NCBI GenBank assembly: GCA_030621535.1
Contig: JAUXHM010000024.1
Span: 1 to 10,592 of the forward strand
DNA length: 10,592 nucleotides
Source of the DNA: Candidatus Methanophagales archaeon
GTDB lineage: Archaea > Halobacteriota > Syntropharchaeia > Alkanophagales > Methanospirareceae
Direction: 5' to 3'
Both the position numbers and the translations under genes were made by a program. Numbering within the stretch: the first letter of the stretch is position 1; every line of letters begins with the position of its first letter. A model generated the notes under the pieces. The model had not been told where the DNA came from. It did no database searches and saw only the letters and a list, made by a program, of their open reading frames with translations. Below, in pieces: positions 3,280 to 10,531 of this stretch.

Positions 3280-4581
3280 CTACTTAAAGTACAAAGTCCG
3301 ATACTTTTCCCCCCTCTTTCCCCTTTTTCTTTCCTTCTTCCACTCCCCTATCTTTTCATTCAACAACTGCCCATCCACAAAAGCGAAATCGCCTCCGCTT
3401 TCGCCCTCACTTTCTTCTTTTAACAGCAACGGTATTTCACCAGAAGTAGAAAAAGCAGGAATCCCTGATTCGAAAAACTTATCCGCCGCGAAATGCGACA
3501 GCTCCTTATCATATATCACCGCTGCAACGCCTTTGCTCGCCAATAATTCCGCTGTGCTTGCTCCGCCACCACTGCCATCCTCAAGGAATACCACATCCCC
3601 TTTTTTCAACCCGTATTTCCTGTCCGTATCCAGTATTGCATTCCGACTGAAAGAGCGTATCACTTTTATCTTTTTTCCTCCTTTTACCTTCACTTCTCGT
3701 TTACCTTTTAACTCCTCCACGATTTGCCTTAATTCTGCATTCTCCCCCTCTCTCGCTTTTAGTTCCTCTTTCAGCCTTTTTATCTCCTTTTCTCTCCTAG
3801 TTATCTCCTCTGTCTCTTCTATCTCACGCTTCCTTGCGGTTTTCAGTGTCGCTACTCGAGAATGCAAATTCGCTAATTCTGCTTCCTTTTCCTCCAACCT
3901 CGTCTTAAGAGCCGCTGTGAGCTCTTCTAGCATCTCTATCTTATCGTCCTTACCTTTAATAATTCTACGTAATCTGAGCTCATTTTCATCAGTTCGTTCA
4001 CTGCCCTTTTTCATGGCTTGCATATCGCCGCTCTCCTTCCTCCTGGCATCCCAAGTCTTCATCCCCTTCTCCGCCTCTTTATCCTCTTTAGCACGGATTA
4101 ATCGGTCTATCGCAGCACTTATGGACACGCCTTTAATCACCATCGCTTTTACTTCTTCTACGTCCACACCCGCCGGCGTCTTCTTCTGCACCTGCGAGAA
4201 TTTCTTCTTATATCGCCGGAATGCATTAACGCAGGCGGCCAATGCGTCACGCTCATGCACATTTTTATATTCATACCCCTCTGCTTTCGTCAGTGCAATC
4301 TTCTCTTCCGTTGACAGCGATTCGTCTAATTCGTGAACGGGTGAAGAGAAAATACGGCTTATCCTTTTTACCGTTGAAGGTGTGGGTGTAACGTCAGATG
4401 CCACTATCAAAGGGTTTCCTCGTGCTATTATCCGTTCTATCACATCGGAGCACGAATAATTTTTTGAGCTGAATACTTCTATTGGTTTTCCATCGAGGTC
4501 AATTATGGCTACCCCTATCGTAGTGCCCGGGTCTATGCCGACGATGATGTATCTTCGAAATTTCGCAGATGAATATGCCAT
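3280..4581 (-). CDS. DUF460 (COG2433-like) RuvC/RNase H-fold protein with coiled coil
   Basis: A 433-residue protein of a conserved archaeal family with no established function. The N-terminal domain (about 11-125) has an RNase H/RuvC-like pattern: IIVGIDPGTTIGVAIID (Asp17), a second strand ending ASDVTPTP (Asp63), HELDES (Glu84/Asp86), and HERDALAACVNAFRRY (Asp112). The acidic residues could form a metal site. Residues about 145-165 (EEVKAMVIKGVSISAAIDRL) are a short helical element. A long Lys/Glu-rich coiled coil spans about 195-300. The C-terminal domain (about 305-405, VIRSFSRNAILDTDRKYGLK, DVVFLEDGSGGGASTAELL) ends in a basic tail. From memory, full-length relatives are longer because of an extra N-terminal domain, so this looks like a short form. 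It is convergent with moeA, and no Shine-Dalgarno is seen before the ATG. A nucleic acid-directed role is plausible but unproven. Confidence 0.85.
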   Translation of the reverse strand: MAYSSAKFRRYIIVGIDPGTTIGVAIIDLDGKPIEVFSSKNYSCSDVIERIIARGNPLIVASDVTPTPSTVKRISRIFSSPVHELDESLSTEEKIALTKAEGYEYKNVHERDALAACVNAFRRYKKKFSQVQKKTPAGVDVEEVKAMVIKGVSISAAIDRLIRAKEDKEAEKGMKTWDARRKESGDMQAMKKGSERTDENELRLRRIIKGKDDKIEMLEELTAALKTRLEEKEAELANLHSRVATLKTARKREIEETEEITRREKEIKRLKEELKAREGENAELRQIVEELKGKREVKVKGGKKIKVIRSFSRNAILDTDRKYGLKKGDVVFLEDGSGGGASTAELLASKGVAAVIYDKELSHFAADKFFESGIPAFSTSGEIPLLLKEESEGESGGDFAFVDGQLLNEKIGEWKKERKRGKRGEKYRTLYFK

Positions 4582-4777: not shown

Positions 4778-7504
4778 CTATACCGCGAAATCCAACTGTG
4801 CATACACCTGTCTGTCTCTGAAATTCCGCAACGACATCGCGCCTGACGGGCAATAAGAAGCGCAACTTCCGCAGCCGATGCATCCGTCTCCGGTCTTCGC
4901 AACCTTCTTTGTTCCGCCTACCACCGTGGTCACACCGAAAGTAACCACCGGTACCGGCTCTTCGGTCAGTTCTATCGCCTCGACCGGGCATATCGCTTCA
5001 CATACGCCGCATCCTGCACATATCTCCTCGTCAACCACCGAAGTCATCGCCGGCGTCTCGAGGAAATCTTTCGCCAGTAGCACACATGCCCTCGACGCTG
5101 CCGCACTGCTCATTGCGAGGCATTCGTCTATCATCGCGGGATAAACTGCCGAACCGCAGATAAACACCCCTTCGTTCACCGTGTCAACAGGAGTCAGCAC
5201 CATCTTTGGCCTCTCCGGCTTCTCCATAAAGAATCCCTTTTTCAATGGAATCATAAACATCTTGCTTAGTCTCTCGTTCTCCTCCGCAGGCATCGTCGGT
5301 GTGCTGAGCACCACCAAATCAGGCTTTATCTGTATCTCATCATTGAATATCACGTCATAGACCGAAACAATCCCATCTTCGTATTTCGGTGGTTTCTCCT
5401 TGTCATATCTGAGGAATATCACGCCTTTCTCACGTGCATCTTTGTACAGCACTTCCCACTTACCGTAGGTCTTTATGTCCTGGTACAGCACGAATACATT
5501 CGCATCCGGGTTCTTCTCTTTCGCTTTTAACGCACTATCCACTACCTCGATGCTGCTGTACCTTGCAGTTACGCCTTCCCCTGGCACATCTTGAATCAAT
5601 GCGATTGTATTTGCATCCAGCTTACCTGCCAGCATCTTTCCAAATTCGCTTACCGTCGTCACGTTCTTCTCTTTGCCATATCCGAAGTAACCTTCAGGCA
5701 CGAAATCACGCCTCGCTCCTGTTGCAATCACACAGGCGCCAAATTCTATCTCCGCATCCTCAGCCGAACCCTCTGCGACTATCTTCGCTTTAAACGAACC
5801 TGCTCTTCCCACTATTTCTTCTTCTTTCACCTTCGTGTGCACGTTTATTCGCTCATTAGCTGTTACTTTATCAACTAACTCTTTCAAAACGTCCGCAGCT
5901 TGCTCACCGCCTGGTCCCTGTAATTCTGTGGTCTTCTTCAAACCGCCACCCAGTTCTGCTCCTTTCTCCACTAAATGGACTTCATACCCTGCGTCTGCAA
6001 TTCCAAGTGCTGCGTTCATTCCCGATATGCCACCACCAATAACAAGCGCTTTCGGTATCACGGGATACCGTTCAACCGGTATTTCCTCGAGATACTTCGC
6101 TCGTTCCGCGGCCATTTTCAGCATATCTACCGCCGCTTCTGTCGCGTCTTTGGGGTCTTGCACCCACGCACATTGCTCTCGTAGATTTACCATCTCCAGT
6201 AAATACGGATTTAGTCCTGCTCCGGCACATGCGTCCCTGACCATGTCTTCACATTCTCTCGGCGACTGCCCTGCAAATACTATCCTGTTCAATCTCTGGT
6301 CCACTATTCCGCTCTCTATCGCGTCCATCGCCTCCTTCAGTGTGCTCGTTTCGCTGTTCACGTATGCAACGTCCTTTAATTCGTTGATTCGTTCCGCGAC
6401 CGCAGGTATATCTACGGTATTCGCCACTTCGCCTTCACAACCGCAAATGAATACGCCCGTCTTCAGTTCATCGCCAACTTCAATAAATTTGTGCTCCTCC
6501 TGCCCCGGAATTGGTTCCGTGCGCTGTGAAAGTCCTGCAGCTTTTAATGCCGCACCGCTCGCCTGTGCAACGCTTTCCCGCACCTTCATCGGTGCCGTTG
6601 CCGTTCCACACGCTAAAATACCAGGAACACTCGTTTCCAGCGGGCTCGTTAGGCTCGTTTCAATGTATCCGTATGTATCTGTTTTCACGCCCGTTATTTC
6701 TGCAAGTTTGCCCATGGTTTTTGACGGCAGCAAACCAACCGCAAGAACCACCATATCAAGCTCGAGTTTTTCTATCGTCCCCTTCTCAAGGTTCTCGAAC
6801 TTAACGGTCAACGCCCCTCCTTCGGGTATCACCTCAGGAACCCGTGACCTTATGTATTTTACGCCATATTTGTCCTTTAACTCTGCCACTAATTCCTCGT
6901 CTTTTCCAAATACCCGGATGTCCATGTAGAAGATGTAAATCTCCACGTCCGGGTATCGCTCTTTTACTTCCCACGCCTCTTTCGCTGTGTATGCGCAGCA
7001 CGCTGTAGAACAAATCTCGTTCTCCTGGCATCTTGAGCCAACGCACTTGATAAATCCTAACCTCTTTACTCGCTTACCGTCCGATGGTCTCACCAATTCC
7101 CCGGTTTCACTTACCGTAGCAGCTTTGAGAATCCCCTCGAAATCCAGTGAGACTACAACGTCCGGACTTCCAAATCCGTAACTCTTCGCTACTTCCGGAA
7201 TGTCGTAGCCCGGCGCCAACACCACGCTCTCCACCCCTATTTCATTGCCCGACACGCTCAGCTTGAAATCTCCCGCTGTGCCTGACAAACGCTCTAACTC
7301 GCTCGACAGCATCAAATCTATGTTTGGATGGTTTTCCACTTTGGCTATGTATGGCGACAACCCCATCTGACATTCCGCAAGCTCCCCCATCTTTCCTCCA
7401 AGCTCGGCATTCTTTTCTATCAAATGTACTTTATAACCCGAATCCGCAAGGTCAAGAGCGGCTGTTATTCCTGCAACTCCTCCCCCTATAATTGCTATTC
7501 CCAT
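4778..7504 (-). CDS. hdrA: Fused tandem HdrA: heterodisulfide reductase flavin subunit
   Basis: HdrA is the FAD subunit that splits electrons between heterodisulfide (via HdrBC) and ferredoxin. This protein is 908 residues against about 650 for usual HdrA. Module 1 (1-335) has an FAD fold (IIGGGVAGITAAL, 5-17), ECQMG at 44-48, and the HdrA/QmoA motif CVGSRC (154-159) with CSTACC (165-170). It lacks the N-terminal domain and any ferredoxin. Module 2 (about 348-908) has the HdrA N-terminal domain (VFICGCEG 351-358, SPRECE, LREQCAW 441-447), a second FAD fold (LVIGGGISGMNAAL), ICGSAVYP, and two CxxCxxCxxxCP motifs (829-839, 875-885). Its counterpart of the CVGSR region (637-655) has no cysteine. 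In the N-terminal domain the cysteines expected near 386 and 413 are absent, leaving C354, C356 and C445. No inserted ferredoxin domain is seen in either module. The ATG at 7504 is chosen because AGGTG lies 8-9 nt upstream; a GTG at 7510 would overlap hdrB by 4 nt but sits too close to it. Confidence 0.92.
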   Translation of the reverse strand: MGIAIIGGGVAGITAALDLADSGYKVHLIEKNAELGGKMGELAECQMGLSPYIAKVENHPNIDLMLSSELERLSGTAGDFKLSVSGNEIGVESVVLAPGYDIPEVAKSYGFGSPDVVVSLDFEGILKAATVSETGELVRPSDGKRVKRLGFIKCVGSRCQENEICSTACCAYTAKEAWEVKERYPDVEIYIFYMDIRVFGKDEELVAELKDKYGVKYIRSRVPEVIPEGGALTVKFENLEKGTIEKLELDMVVLAVGLLPSKTMGKLAEITGVKTDTYGYIETSLTSPLETSVPGILACGTATAPMKVRESVAQASGAALKAAGLSQRTEPIPGQEEHKFIEVGDELKTGVFICGCEGEVANTVDIPAVAERINELKDVAYVNSETSTLKEAMDAIESGIVDQRLNRIVFAGQSPRECEDMVRDACAGAGLNPYLLEMVNLREQCAWVQDPKDATEAAVDMLKMAAERAKYLEEIPVERYPVIPKALVIGGGISGMNAALGIADAGYEVHLVEKGAELGGGLKKTTELQGPGGEQAADVLKELVDKVTANERINVHTKVKEEEIVGRAGSFKAKIVAEGSAEDAEIEFGACVIATGARRDFVPEGYFGYGKEKNVTTVSEFGKMLAGKLDANTIALIQDVPGEGVTARYSSIEVVDSALKAKEKNPDANVFVLYQDIKTYGKWEVLYKDAREKGVIFLRYDKEKPPKYEDGIVSVYDVIFNDEIQIKPDLVVLSTPTMPAEENERLSKMFMIPLKKGFFMEKPERPKMVLTPVDTVNEGVFICGSAVYPAMIDECLAMSSAAASRACVLLAKDFLETPAMTSVVDEEICAGCGVCEAICPVEAIELTEEPVPVVTFGVTTVVGGTKKVAKTGDGCIGCGSCASYCPSGAMSLRNFRDRQVYAQLDFAV

Positions 7505-7506
7505 TT

Positions 7507-8376
7507 TCACACCACCTTCCCAAGTATTTCTTTCGTATCCACGGCATTTTTATTAAGCCCGAGTTTGTTCGGTTCTATTCCAAGCGCGAGACCCAACAAC
7601 TGCGTGATGTAAACAACGGGCATTCCTATTGTGACGTCTAACGCCTTTTCTATATCCGCCTGCTTGCCGTCCAGCATCATGCCGCACAGCGGGCATGCGA
7701 GTGAAATGCAATCCGCACCCGCATTCTTCGCAACGTCCAGTATCTTCCGCGCCATGTCAAATGCTATGTCCCCCCGCGTCATCATCAGAGGCCCACCGCA
7801 GCAGACCGTCTTCATGTAATTGAAATTTGGCACAATTTCGCCGCCTATCAGCTCTATTAACTTGTCCATCAAAACCGGATTGTCGGGGTCATCAAAAGCC
7901 GTCTCTGGCGGTCGCCCGATATAACATCCGTAATACGGTGCAACTTTCACGTTCACCTTCTTCTCCAGCTTACTTGAAATCTCATCCAGGCCTATGTCGT
8001 TCACGAAGACGTCCAGCACGTGTTTCGTTTTTATCGTACCGTTATAGTCCAGCGAGCTGTCTATCCCCTTTAGTTTCGTACGCAGAGCTTCATCTGCCTT
8101 CAATGCCCTGTTACTACGCTCTAAATTGTAATAGCAGATGCTGCACGGAGTTACAATGTCCAAATCTTCTTTCTCGGCAATCGCAAGATTCCGCGCGTTT
8201 AACGCATACACTACTCTCGGGTCCTCTACTTCCGCAGCACCACAGCAGTTCCAATCCTCTACCTCAACCAGCTCAACGCCTAACTTCTCAAACACCGCTT
8301 CGGTTGACATGTGCTGCTCTATCGCCGTCGCCTCGGAAGGACAGCCGGGATAGTATGCGAGTTTATCTACACTCAT
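7507..8376 (-). CDS. hdrB: Heterodisulfide reductase subunit B (CCG-domain)
   Basis: HdrB holds the site where CoM-S-S-CoB is reduced (or formed in reverse) on two noncubane [4Fe-4S] clusters. The 289-residue protein has two complete CCG modules: C12, C44-C45, C78 and C81 (PGC, NCCG, PCSIC), and C151, C192-C193, C228 and C231 (YGC, VCCGG, ACPLC). Spacing and length fit catalytic HdrB rather than a degenerate CCG protein. Its ATG overlaps the hdrC stop as ATGA (8373-8376), with a purine-rich GGAGGGG-type ribosome binding site inside the end of hdrC. Its stop lies 2 nt before the hdrA ATG. A heterodisulfide substrate is inferred from the intact cysteines and the operon; a related disulfide acceptor cannot be excluded. 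Confidence 0.95.
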   Translation of the reverse strand: MSVDKLAYYPGCPSEATAIEQHMSTEAVFEKLGVELVEVEDWNCCGAAEVEDPRVVYALNARNLAIAEKEDLDIVTPCSICYYNLERSNRALKADEALRTKLKGIDSSLDYNGTIKTKHVLDVFVNDIGLDEISSKLEKKVNVKVAPYYGCYIGRPPETAFDDPDNPVLMDKLIELIGGEIVPNFNYMKTVCCGGPLMMTRGDIAFDMARKILDVAKNAGADCISLACPLCGMMLDGKQADIEKALDVTIGMPVVYITQLLGLALGIEPNKLGLNKNAVDTKEILGKVV

Positions 8377-9005
8377 TTCTCTTTCCCCTCCTCTCCCAGT
8401 TCCTCAAATATCTTCTTCATCACGTCCTTCTGCTTTATCTTCGATGCGAGCATTCCTTTAACCGGACTGCCACCGCCAAGTGGCCCCATTTTTCCTTTCA
8501 AAAACATCCGCATCCCGAAATCCTTGTAATCTTTCATCATCGCCAGCATTCCCTTAATAAAGGAACCTTCTTTCTTCGGATAATATTCCATTGCCAGCCC
8601 CATATCGTAGAGCCGTCCGAACTTCTTCAGCTGATGCTGGAATGCCTTATCAAACAGTGGTCTGGGGCTGTCTATCTTCAAGTTACCCGCTTCCTCTTCT
8701 CTCTCTGCTATTCGCCGTAGCGCACCCAGCACATCGGCAATCCGCACGTCCTGCGGACACCGAGCCGTGCACGTCTGACAGATAAGACAAACCCACAAAT
8801 CAGGATTTGATAAAACCTCCTCCCGCATTCCTAACAAACTCATCTGGATGATTTTCCTCGGATTGTAACCTGGAACGAATTCGGTAATTGGACAACCAAG
8901 CGTGCAGGTGCTGCACTGAAAACATGACGCGAGGCGTTCTCCGCCCGCCTCGCTCATTATCTCGTTCTTGAAGTTCGGGTCCAGCTCCCATGTTTTTATT
9001 GGCAT
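8373..9005 (-). CDS. hdrC: Heterodisulfide reductase subunit C (2x[4Fe-4S])
   Basis: HdrC is the electron-transfer subunit linking HdrA to the HdrB active site. The 210-residue protein has two classical ferredoxin motifs, C28/C31/C34/C38 followed by Pro (SCFQCSTCTLGCP) and C73/C76/C79/C83 followed by Pro (VCLICQTCTARCP). Between them is the conserved NPRKIIQMSLLG stretch that is characteristic of HdrC. The C-terminal third (about 110-210) is basic and Gly/Met-rich (FLKGKMGPLGGGSPVKGML), with no membrane segment, so the complex is soluble. It starts 18 nt after the frhB-like stop. That gap holds a near-tandem AAAGGGTAAA duplication and only a weak ribosome binding site, and it is the only real spacer in the operon. 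Confidence 0.95.
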   Translation of the reverse strand: MPIKTWELDPNFKNEIMSEAGGERLASCFQCSTCTLGCPITEFVPGYNPRKIIQMSLLGMREEVLSNPDLWVCLICQTCTARCPQDVRIADVLGALRRIAEREEEAGNLKIDSPRPLFDKAFQHQLKKFGRLYDMGLAMEYYPKKEGSFIKGMLAMMKDYKDFGMRMFLKGKMGPLGGGSPVKGMLASKIKQKDVMKKIFEELGEEGKEK

Positions 9006-9023: not shown

Positions 9024-10091
9024 TTACCTCAACTTGTCTTCCAGCTCTTCCTCTTCGTATGTAGTGAATGGTAGTGGTTCCTCAACGTCCTTACCCGGCA
9101 CGTACTCGAAAATCTCCTGCACCTTCTCCGCAATCACTGGATAAAGCCTTGTCAGTGGGATGTCCTTTGGACAGGCATCCTCACAGGCACCACAGCCGAC
9201 ACAGGTCGTGCTGACATGGTAAACGCGCGTGAGATGATACATCAATTGATTTGCCGGGACCGCTATCGCACCTCTTAACTCCGCTATGTTCAATAAGTCC
9301 CCGCCAACCGGTTTCCCTAAGGGTTGCTCGAAGAAGCATTCCTTGCAGTAGCATACGGGACACATCTCACGGCAGTTCTTGCATACTATGCAGTCCCTCA
9401 AGAACTCCTCTAATGCTTCCACACTGCTTATCTCTGGTAGCGCCTCTTTCTTCTTCTTCGCTTCTGCTGCAATCTTTTCGGTTTCCCCGCTTCTGTCTAT
9501 ATCCTTATCCTCCAGCGAAATATCTTCGATAGCCGACAATGCCTCAACGCCCATGTCCGTTATTCCCACAACTACCACATTATCACCGTCCTGCTTCACA
9601 ATTCCTATATCTCCGACGTCTGCAAGCCGTTTGTCACATATCTCACACGCTTCTCGTATCGCAATCCCTTTTCCTTTCAGTTCCTCTATCTTCGCACTAT
9701 CCACCCAATCACCTATCTCTTCAGCGTGGTCTGCGTAATCCTGATTCTTAAAGGCACCTGAGCAATCTACGCTTATTAGAAGCACACTCTCTTTGTCCAT
9801 TTGTTTCAACTTTATCAATTCTATCGCTGCGCGTATCTCACATGGCTTTGCCACAATTCCTATCTTCTCCTTTATTAGCCACCCCTTCACGACGTTTGCA
9901 GCATTTACAGAGAACGAGGGAGCAAATATAGCGGGCACTGGCGATTCTATCTTATCCTTGTCCGTTACCATCATGTATGCCACGTTATTTCCTACTCGAT
10001 GTGGCAGAACCAGACAGTCCACGGCTTTCTTATCAAGCAATCCCTTAAATAACCCTTCTAAATCCCCTGATTTCAGTTCTACTCCTTTCAT
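9024..10091 (-). CDS. frhB: F420-dehydrogenase beta subunit (FrhB/FdhB family)
   Basis: A 355-residue member of the coenzyme F420 hydrogenase/formate dehydrogenase beta family, whose members carry FAD and exchange hydride with F420. Family features include KPCEIRAAIELIK (82-94), ISVDCSGAF (106-114), EICDKRLADVGDI (150-162), and a C-terminal ferredoxin domain. The first iron-sulfur motif is extended: C234, C237, C240, C244-Pro, then C247, C249 and C252 (CPVCYCKEC). The second is C297/C300/C303/C307-Pro. The acidic linker at about 190-222 is likely flexible. Relation to FdhB-like Hdr partners seems closer than to hydrogenase FrhB, so the symbol is approximate. Its ATG overlaps the mvhD stop (ATGA, 10088-10091), with GAGAGGT 8 nt upstream. 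No FrhA/FrhG or FdhA is encoded nearby, so it probably feeds F420H2 electrons into MvhD-HdrA. Confidence 0.88.
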   Translation of the reverse strand: MKGVELKSGDLEGLFKGLLDKKAVDCLVLPHRVGNNVAYMMVTDKDKIESPVPAIFAPSFSVNAANVVKGWLIKEKIGIVAKPCEIRAAIELIKLKQMDKESVLLISVDCSGAFKNQDYADHAEEIGDWVDSAKIEELKGKGIAIREACEICDKRLADVGDIGIVKQDGDNVVVVGITDMGVEALSAIEDISLEDKDIDRSGETEKIAAEAKKKKEALPEISSVEALEEFLRDCIVCKNCREMCPVCYCKECFFEQPLGKPVGGDLLNIAELRGAIAVPANQLMYHLTRVYHVSTTCVGCGACEDACPKDIPLTRLYPVIAEKVQEIFEYVPGKDVEEPLPFTTYEEEELEDKLR

Positions 10092-10531
10092 AGTACCTTA
10101 CCTCTCAATGGACTGGGTCCCAACTCCTTTATTTCTTCCGATAGTCCCTTCATCGTATTCGCAAATTTCTCCCCCTCTGACGCGCTTATCCAATACGATT
10201 TAAACCGATTGTCCAGCCCGAGCTGCTTCAGGATTGTCCGTATCGCCGCTATCCTGCGCCTGGCATAGAAGTTCCCTTTTATATAATGACACTCGCCCGG
10301 ATGACACCCGCTAAAGAAAACGCCATCCGCACCATTTAGTAACGCTTTGAGCACAAACATCGGATCCAACCTCGCTGAACACATAAGCCTTATTATCCGA
10401 GAGTTTGGTGGATATTTCTTACGTGACGTCCCCGCAAGGTCAGCAGCGGCGTATGTGCACCAATTACAGGTAAACCCGACTATTTTCGGCTCGAACTTCT
10501 CTTCCTCTTTCTTTGTCGTTTCTTCTCCCAT
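10088..10531 (-). CDS. mvhD: MvhD-type [2Fe-2S] electron-transfer subunit
   Basis: MvhD relays electrons between an input module and HdrA; in hydrogenotrophic methanogens it bridges the MvhAG hydrogenase to HdrABC. The 147-residue protein shows the full family pattern: FTCNWCTYAAADLAG (C22, C25), RIIRLMCSAR (C51), GADGVFFSGCHPGECHY (C76, C81), GNFYARRR, and the terminal WISASEGEKF and LGP. The five cysteines expected for the [2Fe-2S] site are present. A short charged Glu/Lys extension precedes the domain. It is the first gene of the operon, with GGAGGAG at 10542-10536 and a TATA box upstream. The hydrogenase subunits it usually serves are missing; an FrhB-like gene follows instead. Confidence 0.95.
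   Translation of the reverse strand: MGEETTKKEEEKFEPKIVGFTCNWCTYAAADLAGTSRKKYPPNSRIIRLMCSARLDPMFVLKALLNGADGVFFSGCHPGECHYIKGNFYARRRIAAIRTILKQLGLDNRFKSYWISASEGEKFANTMKGLSEEIKELGPSPLRGKVL

Follow-up and report, generated by a model that had tools for sequence, protein, structure and literature searches.

A fused HdrA from a Methanophagales archaeon with one-sided loss of cluster and flavin-site residues

Results

Architecture of the fused HdrA

We analyzed a 10,592-nucleotide stretch of DNA from a Candidatus Methanophagales archaeon (contig JAUXHM010000024.1 of assembly GCA_030621535.1), hereafter the window, in which a fused HdrA is encoded by the final gene in a minus-strand series of five that overlap or lie close together (MvhD, FdhB/FrhB-like, HdrC, HdrB, HdrA). 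The HdrA open reading frame (ORF) runs from an ATG at 7504 to a stop codon at 4778-4780 and has no internal stops; an in-frame GTG lies just upstream, at 7510. The source genome assembly amounts to 1.09 Mb at 60% completeness and contains a match to mcrA. Among the matches listed, the closest proteins come from anaerobic methanotrophic archaea (ANME) of the ANME-1/Methanophagales group (95% and 94% identity). The orthologue in ANME-1 GoMg1 (locus L016), a genome credited to Chadwick et al. 2022 (PMC9012536), is 96% identical.

We aligned the protein with the HdrA of PDB 5ODC, which supplies the canonical numbering used here. The domain order is a TrxR/flavin adenine dinucleotide (FAD) domain, an N-terminal-type domain, a second TrxR/FAD domain and a C-terminal ferredoxin; the alignment shows no inserted ferredoxin domain (HA5/HA6) in either module. 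With two TrxR/FAD domains in one chain, the protein falls among the type II (fused) HdrAs. Its features are listed below, with counts from the 200 fused HdrAs described in the next section.

4778..7504, minus strand: fused HdrA, type II-like, without inserted ferredoxin domain, 908 residues
6530..7504, minus strand: module 1, TrxR/FAD, residues 1-325, without N-terminal domain and without inserted ferredoxin
7370..7372, minus strand: C45, at the place of canonical Cys194/Cys197; Cys in 200/200
7136..7138, minus strand: E123, equivalent to canonical E356; 200/200
6995..7045, minus strand: module-1 HA4-type cluster site C154/C165/C169/C170 (CVGSRC...CSTACC); intact in 199/200
6980..6982, minus strand: K175, equivalent to canonical K409; 192/200
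6155..6469, minus strand: N-terminal-type domain, internal, residues 346-450; C354/C356/C445 present, L389/Q413 in place of C46/C71
5075..6079, minus strand: module 2, TrxR/FAD, residues 476-810, FAD glycines present
5537..5590, minus strand: lost module-2 cluster site D639/T646/S650/S651 and lost K409 (D656)
4781..5074, minus strand: C-terminal 2x[4Fe-4S] ferredoxin domain, 8/8 Cys

The four module-1 cluster ligands correspond to canonical C386/C399/C403/C404, the positions that D639/T646/S650/S651 occupy in module 2. G622 replaces E356 in module 2, and D656 replaces K409. C45 aligns with canonical C194, and the C197 position is taken by G48. In the N-terminal domain, C354, C356 and C445 are the equivalents of C11, C13 and C103. 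Of the marks of a canonical bifurcating HdrA, E356/K409 at the flavin site are found in module 1 only and the inserted ferredoxin in neither module.

A first-pass annotation of this DNA had described two HdrA-type modules in one polypeptide, both with intact FAD folds. It saw module 1 as keeping its cysteine motif while lacking the N-terminal and ferredoxin domains, and module 2 as having those domains without cysteines in the matching region and without two cysteines of the N-terminal domain. Every part of this description agrees with the alignment, including FAD glycines in both modules, and the single ORF recurs in other genomes. The annotation overlooked C45, the lack of an inserted ferredoxin in either module and the fact that the loss is one-sided.

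Loss of sites across fused HdrAs

We built an alignment of 215 fused HdrA-like sequences, selected for their similarity with the window protein: the window itself, proteins of at least 850 residues drawn from the best 120 of 7276 protein matches, and, from 80 loci, HdrA ORFs no shorter than 790 residues. Ligands were counted in 200 of these rows. The other 15 were left out owing to a gap at C45 where the N terminus is cut (four), a length above 1250 residues (seven), no N-terminal domain (three) or no C-terminal ferredoxin Cys (one); their module-2 site reads CCCC in 14 and CCGC in one, and all 15 have K409 in module 2. Because the protein and locus sources share members, the rows are not independent. 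Across the 215 sequences the N-terminal domain is internal in 212, absent in three and at the N terminus in none.

In the 107 rows with an inserted ferredoxin (40 proteins and 67 locus ORFs), both modules are close to complete. The HA4 site is intact in 106 for module 1 and 107 for module 2, K409 is present in 107 and 105, respectively, and E356 of module 2 in 105; C46 and C71 are each found in 107 and all five N-terminal-domain Cys in 105. The remaining 93 rows, without the inserted ferredoxin, comprise 76 proteins (the window among them) and 17 locus ORFs. Here module 1 keeps HA4 and E356 in 93 and K409 in 85, and all eight C-terminal ferredoxin Cys are present in 93. In module 2 of the same rows, HA4 survives in 10, K409 in 10 and E356 in 20; C46 is kept in 15, as is the full set of five N-terminal-domain Cys. 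Judged from these counts, the decay of sites in fused HdrAs is mostly on the module-2 side.

The FAD-binding glycines of module 2 (G490, G492 and G495) are kept in all 83 relatives that have lost the module-2 cluster. Ligands conserved at shifted positions, which the first-pass annotation had named as a reason to doubt the loss, were looked for: the window protein has no Cys between residues 592 and 782, and between 592 and 700 the relatives have none in 71 of 83 and a single one in 12. Residue 639, at the first lost ligand, is always acidic (D in 79/83, E in 4/83), despite two changes on the tree.

The main ANME-1 group (75 rows without inserted ferredoxin that have lost C46 and the module-2 HA4 site) has K409 in module 1 in 74 and E356 in 75. 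C354, C356 and C445 are all kept in 57 of its members and not in 18. C45 persists even where the N-terminal domain has lost nearly all its Cys; this residue may have a role other than ligating the N-terminal-domain cluster.

Trees and selection

A tree of 78 fused HdrAs (thinned at 93% and 55% identity; LG+G4, with SH-aLRT values as the only support measure), which carries long-branch and composition warnings, calls for two changes in the module-2 HA4 site, three in C46, four in the complete N-terminal Cys set, five in K409 of module 2 and eight in E356 of module 2. The module-1 HA4 site needs none, and E356 of module 1 is invariant in the 200 rows counted. The inserted ferredoxin requires two changes on this tree; a single origin is also possible.

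In a tree built from individual modules (61 rows, 333 columns, midpoint-rooted for drawing only), the fused modules 1 and 2 each make up a group of their own. Three QmoA and three QmoB sequences, named by their position beside a QmoC match, share a single branch apart from both; we reject descent of the fused HdrA from Qmo on this basis. One genome of the family (L138, 5338-8370) carries, roughly 1.6 kb from a fused copy, an unfused pair of 446 and 564 residues that repeats the complementary layout. These two genes share 36-40% identity with the window modules; in the tree they fall outside ANME-1, in a basal position to the module groups and next to a fused protein from Lokiarchaea. Adjacent matches in other genomes of the order hint, by coordinates only, at more unfused pairs. 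The pair of 540 and 739 residues found near the operon (described below) clusters with single HdrAs of ANME-1. Judged from this tree, complementary pairs of a short and a long HdrA seem to have had three or more separate origins.

Mean ratios of nonsynonymous to synonymous substitution (dN/dS; Nei-Gojobori, saturated pairs excluded, synonymous distances above 1 in most pairs) are 0.08 for module 1 (14 pairs), 0.13 for the linker and N-terminal domain (14 pairs), 0.12 for module 2 (15 pairs) and 0.13 for the C-terminal ferredoxin (16 pairs). These values indicate purifying selection on all four segments.

Recurrence in the order

We scanned 53 genomes of the order, the window's own included, 51 of which belong to its family; at most 17 candidates were scored per genome, so absences are not firm. 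HdrA matches of at least 50% identity were found in 42 genomes, all within the family. In 34 of these (own genome included) the match is essentially full length in one place, and in eight it is partial. The 52 other genomes thus hold 33 near whole-chain matches, one with an internal TGA, and eight partial ones, which speaks against two separate genes joined by assembly, a possibility raised in the first-pass annotation. In 29 non-window copies the module-1 CCCC site, E123, K175 and the eight C-terminal Cys are present in 29/29; a module-2 ligand or C46 is found in none, and K409 of module 2 in one. C45 is present in 27 of the 29, the other two being incomplete at the N terminus so that the position is not covered.

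The FdhB-like subunit has matches of at least 60% identity in 40 of the 51 family genomes, own included. Two genomes (G008, G010) have the FrhB-like gene while the listed matches include no HdrA at or above 50%, and four (G017, G025, G027, G036) have such an HdrA match with no FrhB match of at least 60%.

Operon and partner subunits

The fused HdrA is preceded by genes for four partner subunits:

10088..10531, minus strand: MvhD (FlpD), [2Fe-2S] subunit
9024..10091, minus strand: FrhB/FdhB/ElpB-like subunit with C-terminal clusters, probable F420-reactive subunit
8373..9005, minus strand: HdrC; eight cluster Cys in 16/16 sequences, window included
7507..8376, minus strand: HdrB; 11 Cys in 16/16 sequences, window included

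Five Cys of MvhD are kept in 15/15 sequences and 15 of 16 Cys positions of the FrhB-like subunit in 15/15, with C26 in 13 (window included in each case). The order MvhD-FrhB-HdrC-HdrB-HdrA is complete in 14/14 loci of the ANME-1 main clade with enough upstream sequence (within L016-L032). In L020 and L024 contig ends cut the operon and the order agrees as far as it is present; HdrB of L024 is split into two ORFs. The best matches of the FrhB-like subunit are F420-linked FdhB chains of Hdr complexes, and it carries the FdhB cluster cysteines. On this similarity, F420 is probably the partner. No FdhA-like gene is present in the window operon.

Several neighbors were also observed. A DUF460 protein (PF04312) is encoded downstream of the operon on the same strand (window 3280-4581), and likewise follows the fused HdrA in L019. 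Split HdrA pairs lie near the operon in L016 (1937-5793), L019 (1945-5800) and L032 (13210-17029). They consist of a 537-540 residue protein without N-terminal domain and with CSAC present, and a 729-739 residue protein with an N-terminal domain and with C194/C197 lost, the motifs being read in L016 and L032. This is the published tandem-pair layout, with its own HdrB and HdrC alongside in L016 and L019. Elsewhere in the window's genome, contig C85 (L002, 319-1899) holds an HdrA-like ORF of at least 527 residues with an N-terminal domain, ferredoxin clusters and an MvhD domain; a degenerate Rossmann motif stands where the FAD domain is expected, and the product is possibly a flavin-less HdrA.

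Discussion

A proposed asymmetric HdrA without a ferredoxin branch

We propose, at about even odds (a probability near 0.5), that the fused HdrA is permanently asymmetric and lacks a ferredoxin branch, that its complex is an F420:CoM-S-S-CoB oxidoreductase (CoM-S-S-CoB being the heterodisulfide), and that it represents the ANME-1 branch of the type II family. The single chain would stand in for the HdrA homodimer, in line with the built-in asymmetric pair of complementary motifs suggested by the first-pass annotation. Module 2 would be the input arm, with the N-terminal domain, the C-terminal ferredoxin and presumed contacts to MvhD and the FdhB-like subunit. Module 1 has the one flavin site that retains both E356 and K409, and would supply the sole cluster able to pass electrons to HdrC and HdrB. 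Since the donor arm is found in module 2 only and the exit cluster towards HdrC in module 1 only, electrons entering at the arm of module 2 would have to reach the flavin of module 1, a trans route suggested by the sequence together with published structures. Transfer in trans to the FAD' of the other HdrA, with HA4' as the way to HdrB, is described in PMC12350162. The parts lost from module 2 (HA4, K409 and E356) are those that the trans route does not use.

The route to ferredoxin is given as HA3, HA5 and HA6 in PMC6019823, and the absence of HA5/HA6 from both modules suggests that the ferredoxin exit is missing. In the naming of PMC12350162, HA1/HA2 are N-terminal and HA3 is C-terminal; PMC9012536 places the N-terminal-domain cluster on the low-potential path, which conflicts with that naming.

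With less certainty than the cross-module transfer, we suggest that the complex runs both ways between F420/F420H2 and CoM-S-S-CoB/CoM-SH + CoB-SH. With the revised CoM-S-S-CoB potential of -281 mV (quoted in PMC12054007) and an F420 potential near -340 mV (PMC9012536), our arithmetic puts thiol oxidation by F420 at about 11 kJ/mol uphill in the standard state; with the older heterodisulfide potential of -145 mV the figure is about 38 kJ/mol. The methanotrophic direction would be feasible at a high thiol/disulfide and a low F420H2/F420 ratio. According to PMC9012536, ANME-1 lack HdrDE. Given this and the margin of about 11 kJ/mol, ANME-1 could run the complex towards thiol oxidation, and the complex may oxidize CoM-SH/CoB-SH in the methanotrophic direction. 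As a more tentative extension, F420 might be the direct oxidant of CoM-SH/CoB-SH in ANME-1, by way of a soluble Hdr that neither bifurcates nor depends on ferredoxin and whose fused HdrA has dispensed with the low-potential branch and with one flavin center; the loss pattern would then be a natural deletion experiment in which one protomer's arm serves the other's flavin.

Weighing the alternatives

A number of observations weigh against the asymmetric, non-bifurcating assignment. E356 and K409, proposed as marks of bifurcating proteins in PMC12054007, are nearly fixed in module 1 of the main ANME-1 clade, and their retention leaves room for bifurcation. K409 of module 1 is itself variable on the 78-row tree (four changes). 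The losses of the module-2 HA4 site (two events) and of the inserted ferredoxin (one or two) are few, and an independent-pairs test of the former against K409 of module 2 found only two pairs, uninformative alone. C354/C356/C445, the three kept in 57/75, could together with C45 hold a remodeled cluster. The sequences L068_12923, L094_12864 and L095_12795 keep an inserted ferredoxin and both HA4 motifs while their N-terminal domain is absent; this domain can therefore be lost on its own, with the ferredoxin exit still present. L030, a member of another subgroup (50% identity, same losses), has no HdrB, HdrC or FrhB match near and lies outside such an operon, with an MvhD-like ORF and another HdrA ORF downstream. 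Finally, the FdhB-like subunit is short, with a divergent N-terminal half and a weak hidden Markov model match, so F420 as the partner is not proven.

If the complex still bifurcates or confurcates, the module-1 flavin would split the electron pair and the low-potential electron would exit through the arm clusters or through a second HdrA in trans. We regard this as rather unlikely. It would account for the retained E356/K409, and HdrA genes with an inserted ferredoxin do lie near the operon in five of the 14 complete loci (540 + 739 residues in L016 and L019, 537 + 729 in L032, single matches in L021 and L028); HdrA also outnumbers HdrBC in ANME-1, as stated in PMC9012536. However, the L016/L019 pair adjoins its own HdrB and HdrC, and the N-terminal-domain ligands are thinned in the branch without the inserted ferredoxin. 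No second HdrA was matched in the flanks of the other nine complete loci, a weak point since upstream flanks range from none to about 6 kb. The split suggested by the first-pass annotation, with one flavin bifurcating and the other acting as relay or serving a second acceptor, fits badly: no ferredoxin branch is left at the site with E356/K409 and the exit cluster, and the second flavin site lacks E356/K409 in most relatives without the inserted domain. A serial relay from the C-terminal ferredoxin through FAD2 and FAD1 to the module-1 cluster and HdrC, with FAD2 as an internal wire, would fit the retention of G490/G492/G495 in all 83 relatives that have lost the module-2 cluster. We consider it improbable, as the module-2 flavin site has repeatedly lost K409 and E356 and the model in PMC12350162 makes no use of a second flavin on the path. 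An artefact, with two genes misjoined or a second half in decay, can practically be discounted. Unfused relatives exist in the family (the L138 pair), G021 has a TGA in frame, and the copies in G025 and G027 are broken or partial. However, the unfused genes are distant and basal, the fused ORF is found again in independent assemblies, and dN/dS is about 0.1 across all segments. We reject this explanation on the recurring full-length copies, the dN/dS values and the 29 copies with the same motifs.

If the asymmetric, ferredoxin-independent assignment is correct, it bears on an open question in anaerobic methane oxidation raised in PMC9012536, namely how ANME-1, without HdrDE, reoxidize CoM-SH and CoB-SH. 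A soluble complex of five subunits that lacks a ferredoxin exit would be a concrete candidate open to expression and assay. Irrespective of this assignment, the one-sided loss lends evolutionary support to the trans electron transfer proposed from electron cryo-microscopy of Hdr complexes, and it names residues to mutate.

Comparison with known systems

HdrA fusions are already known in ANME. The HdrA3/HdrA4 fusions of Chadwick et al. 2022 (PMC9012536), presented there as self-contained heterodimers, likewise have two HdrAs in one chain; in theirs, Cys197 lies in one half and the N-terminal domain in the other. The split of cysteine motifs emphasized by the first-pass annotation is thus real and not unprecedented. 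That paper also reports HdrA clusters with FdhB and without FdhA as confined to ANME-1, and the window operon is very probably one of them. Some differences are apparent. At the place of the Cys197 criterion the window protein has C45, aligned to C194 instead of C197. Their text places the N-terminal domain in the first half, whereas it is internal in the window protein and in nearly all of our set, which was picked by similarity. In the portion of that text available to us, neither the loss of the module-2 cluster site nor that of K409/E356 is mentioned. Within the parts of the open-licence full-text literature available to us, we found no statement of one-sided loss in fused HdrAs, including the window branch. 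HdrA-HdrA fusions are also reported from Asgard and TACK archaea (PMC11237513).

The canonical HdrABC complexes (5ODC, 7BKB, 8RVU) share HdrB, HdrC, the HdrA domain types and FdhB/ElpB-like and MvhD partners with the window operon. Their HdrA is a homodimer with an inserted ferredoxin, whereas the window encodes one asymmetric chain without it. The QmoA-like layout noted in the first-pass annotation is borne out as a resemblance to QmoA plus QmoB and not as Qmo ancestry: both systems combine a short partner (FAD, cluster, no N-terminal domain) with a long one (N-terminal domain, FAD, C-terminal ferredoxin). However, QmoA and QmoB are separate genes with a QmoC partner on a separate tree branch, QmoA has an inserted ferredoxin, and QmoB has an intact cluster site and an extra C-terminal part, unlike the window HdrA.

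The type II HdrAs of PMC12054007 have two TrxR domains and are described as a fusion of classes A6 and A12. In the window protein the first half lacks and the second half has an N-terminal domain, and each half falls in a clade of its own (A6 and A12 were not themselves compared). According to that paper, 14% of type II HdrAs are co-located with MvhD, HdrBC, FdhB and an FdhA-like protein, the last of which the window operon lacks. K409/E356 are reported there in both halves of 75% of type II sequences, with two bifurcations per protein proposed; this trait is typical and not strict, and the window protein has both residues in module 1 and neither in module 2. Thus, at the level of sequence, the window HdrA branch is an exception to the both-halves rule of the type II family.

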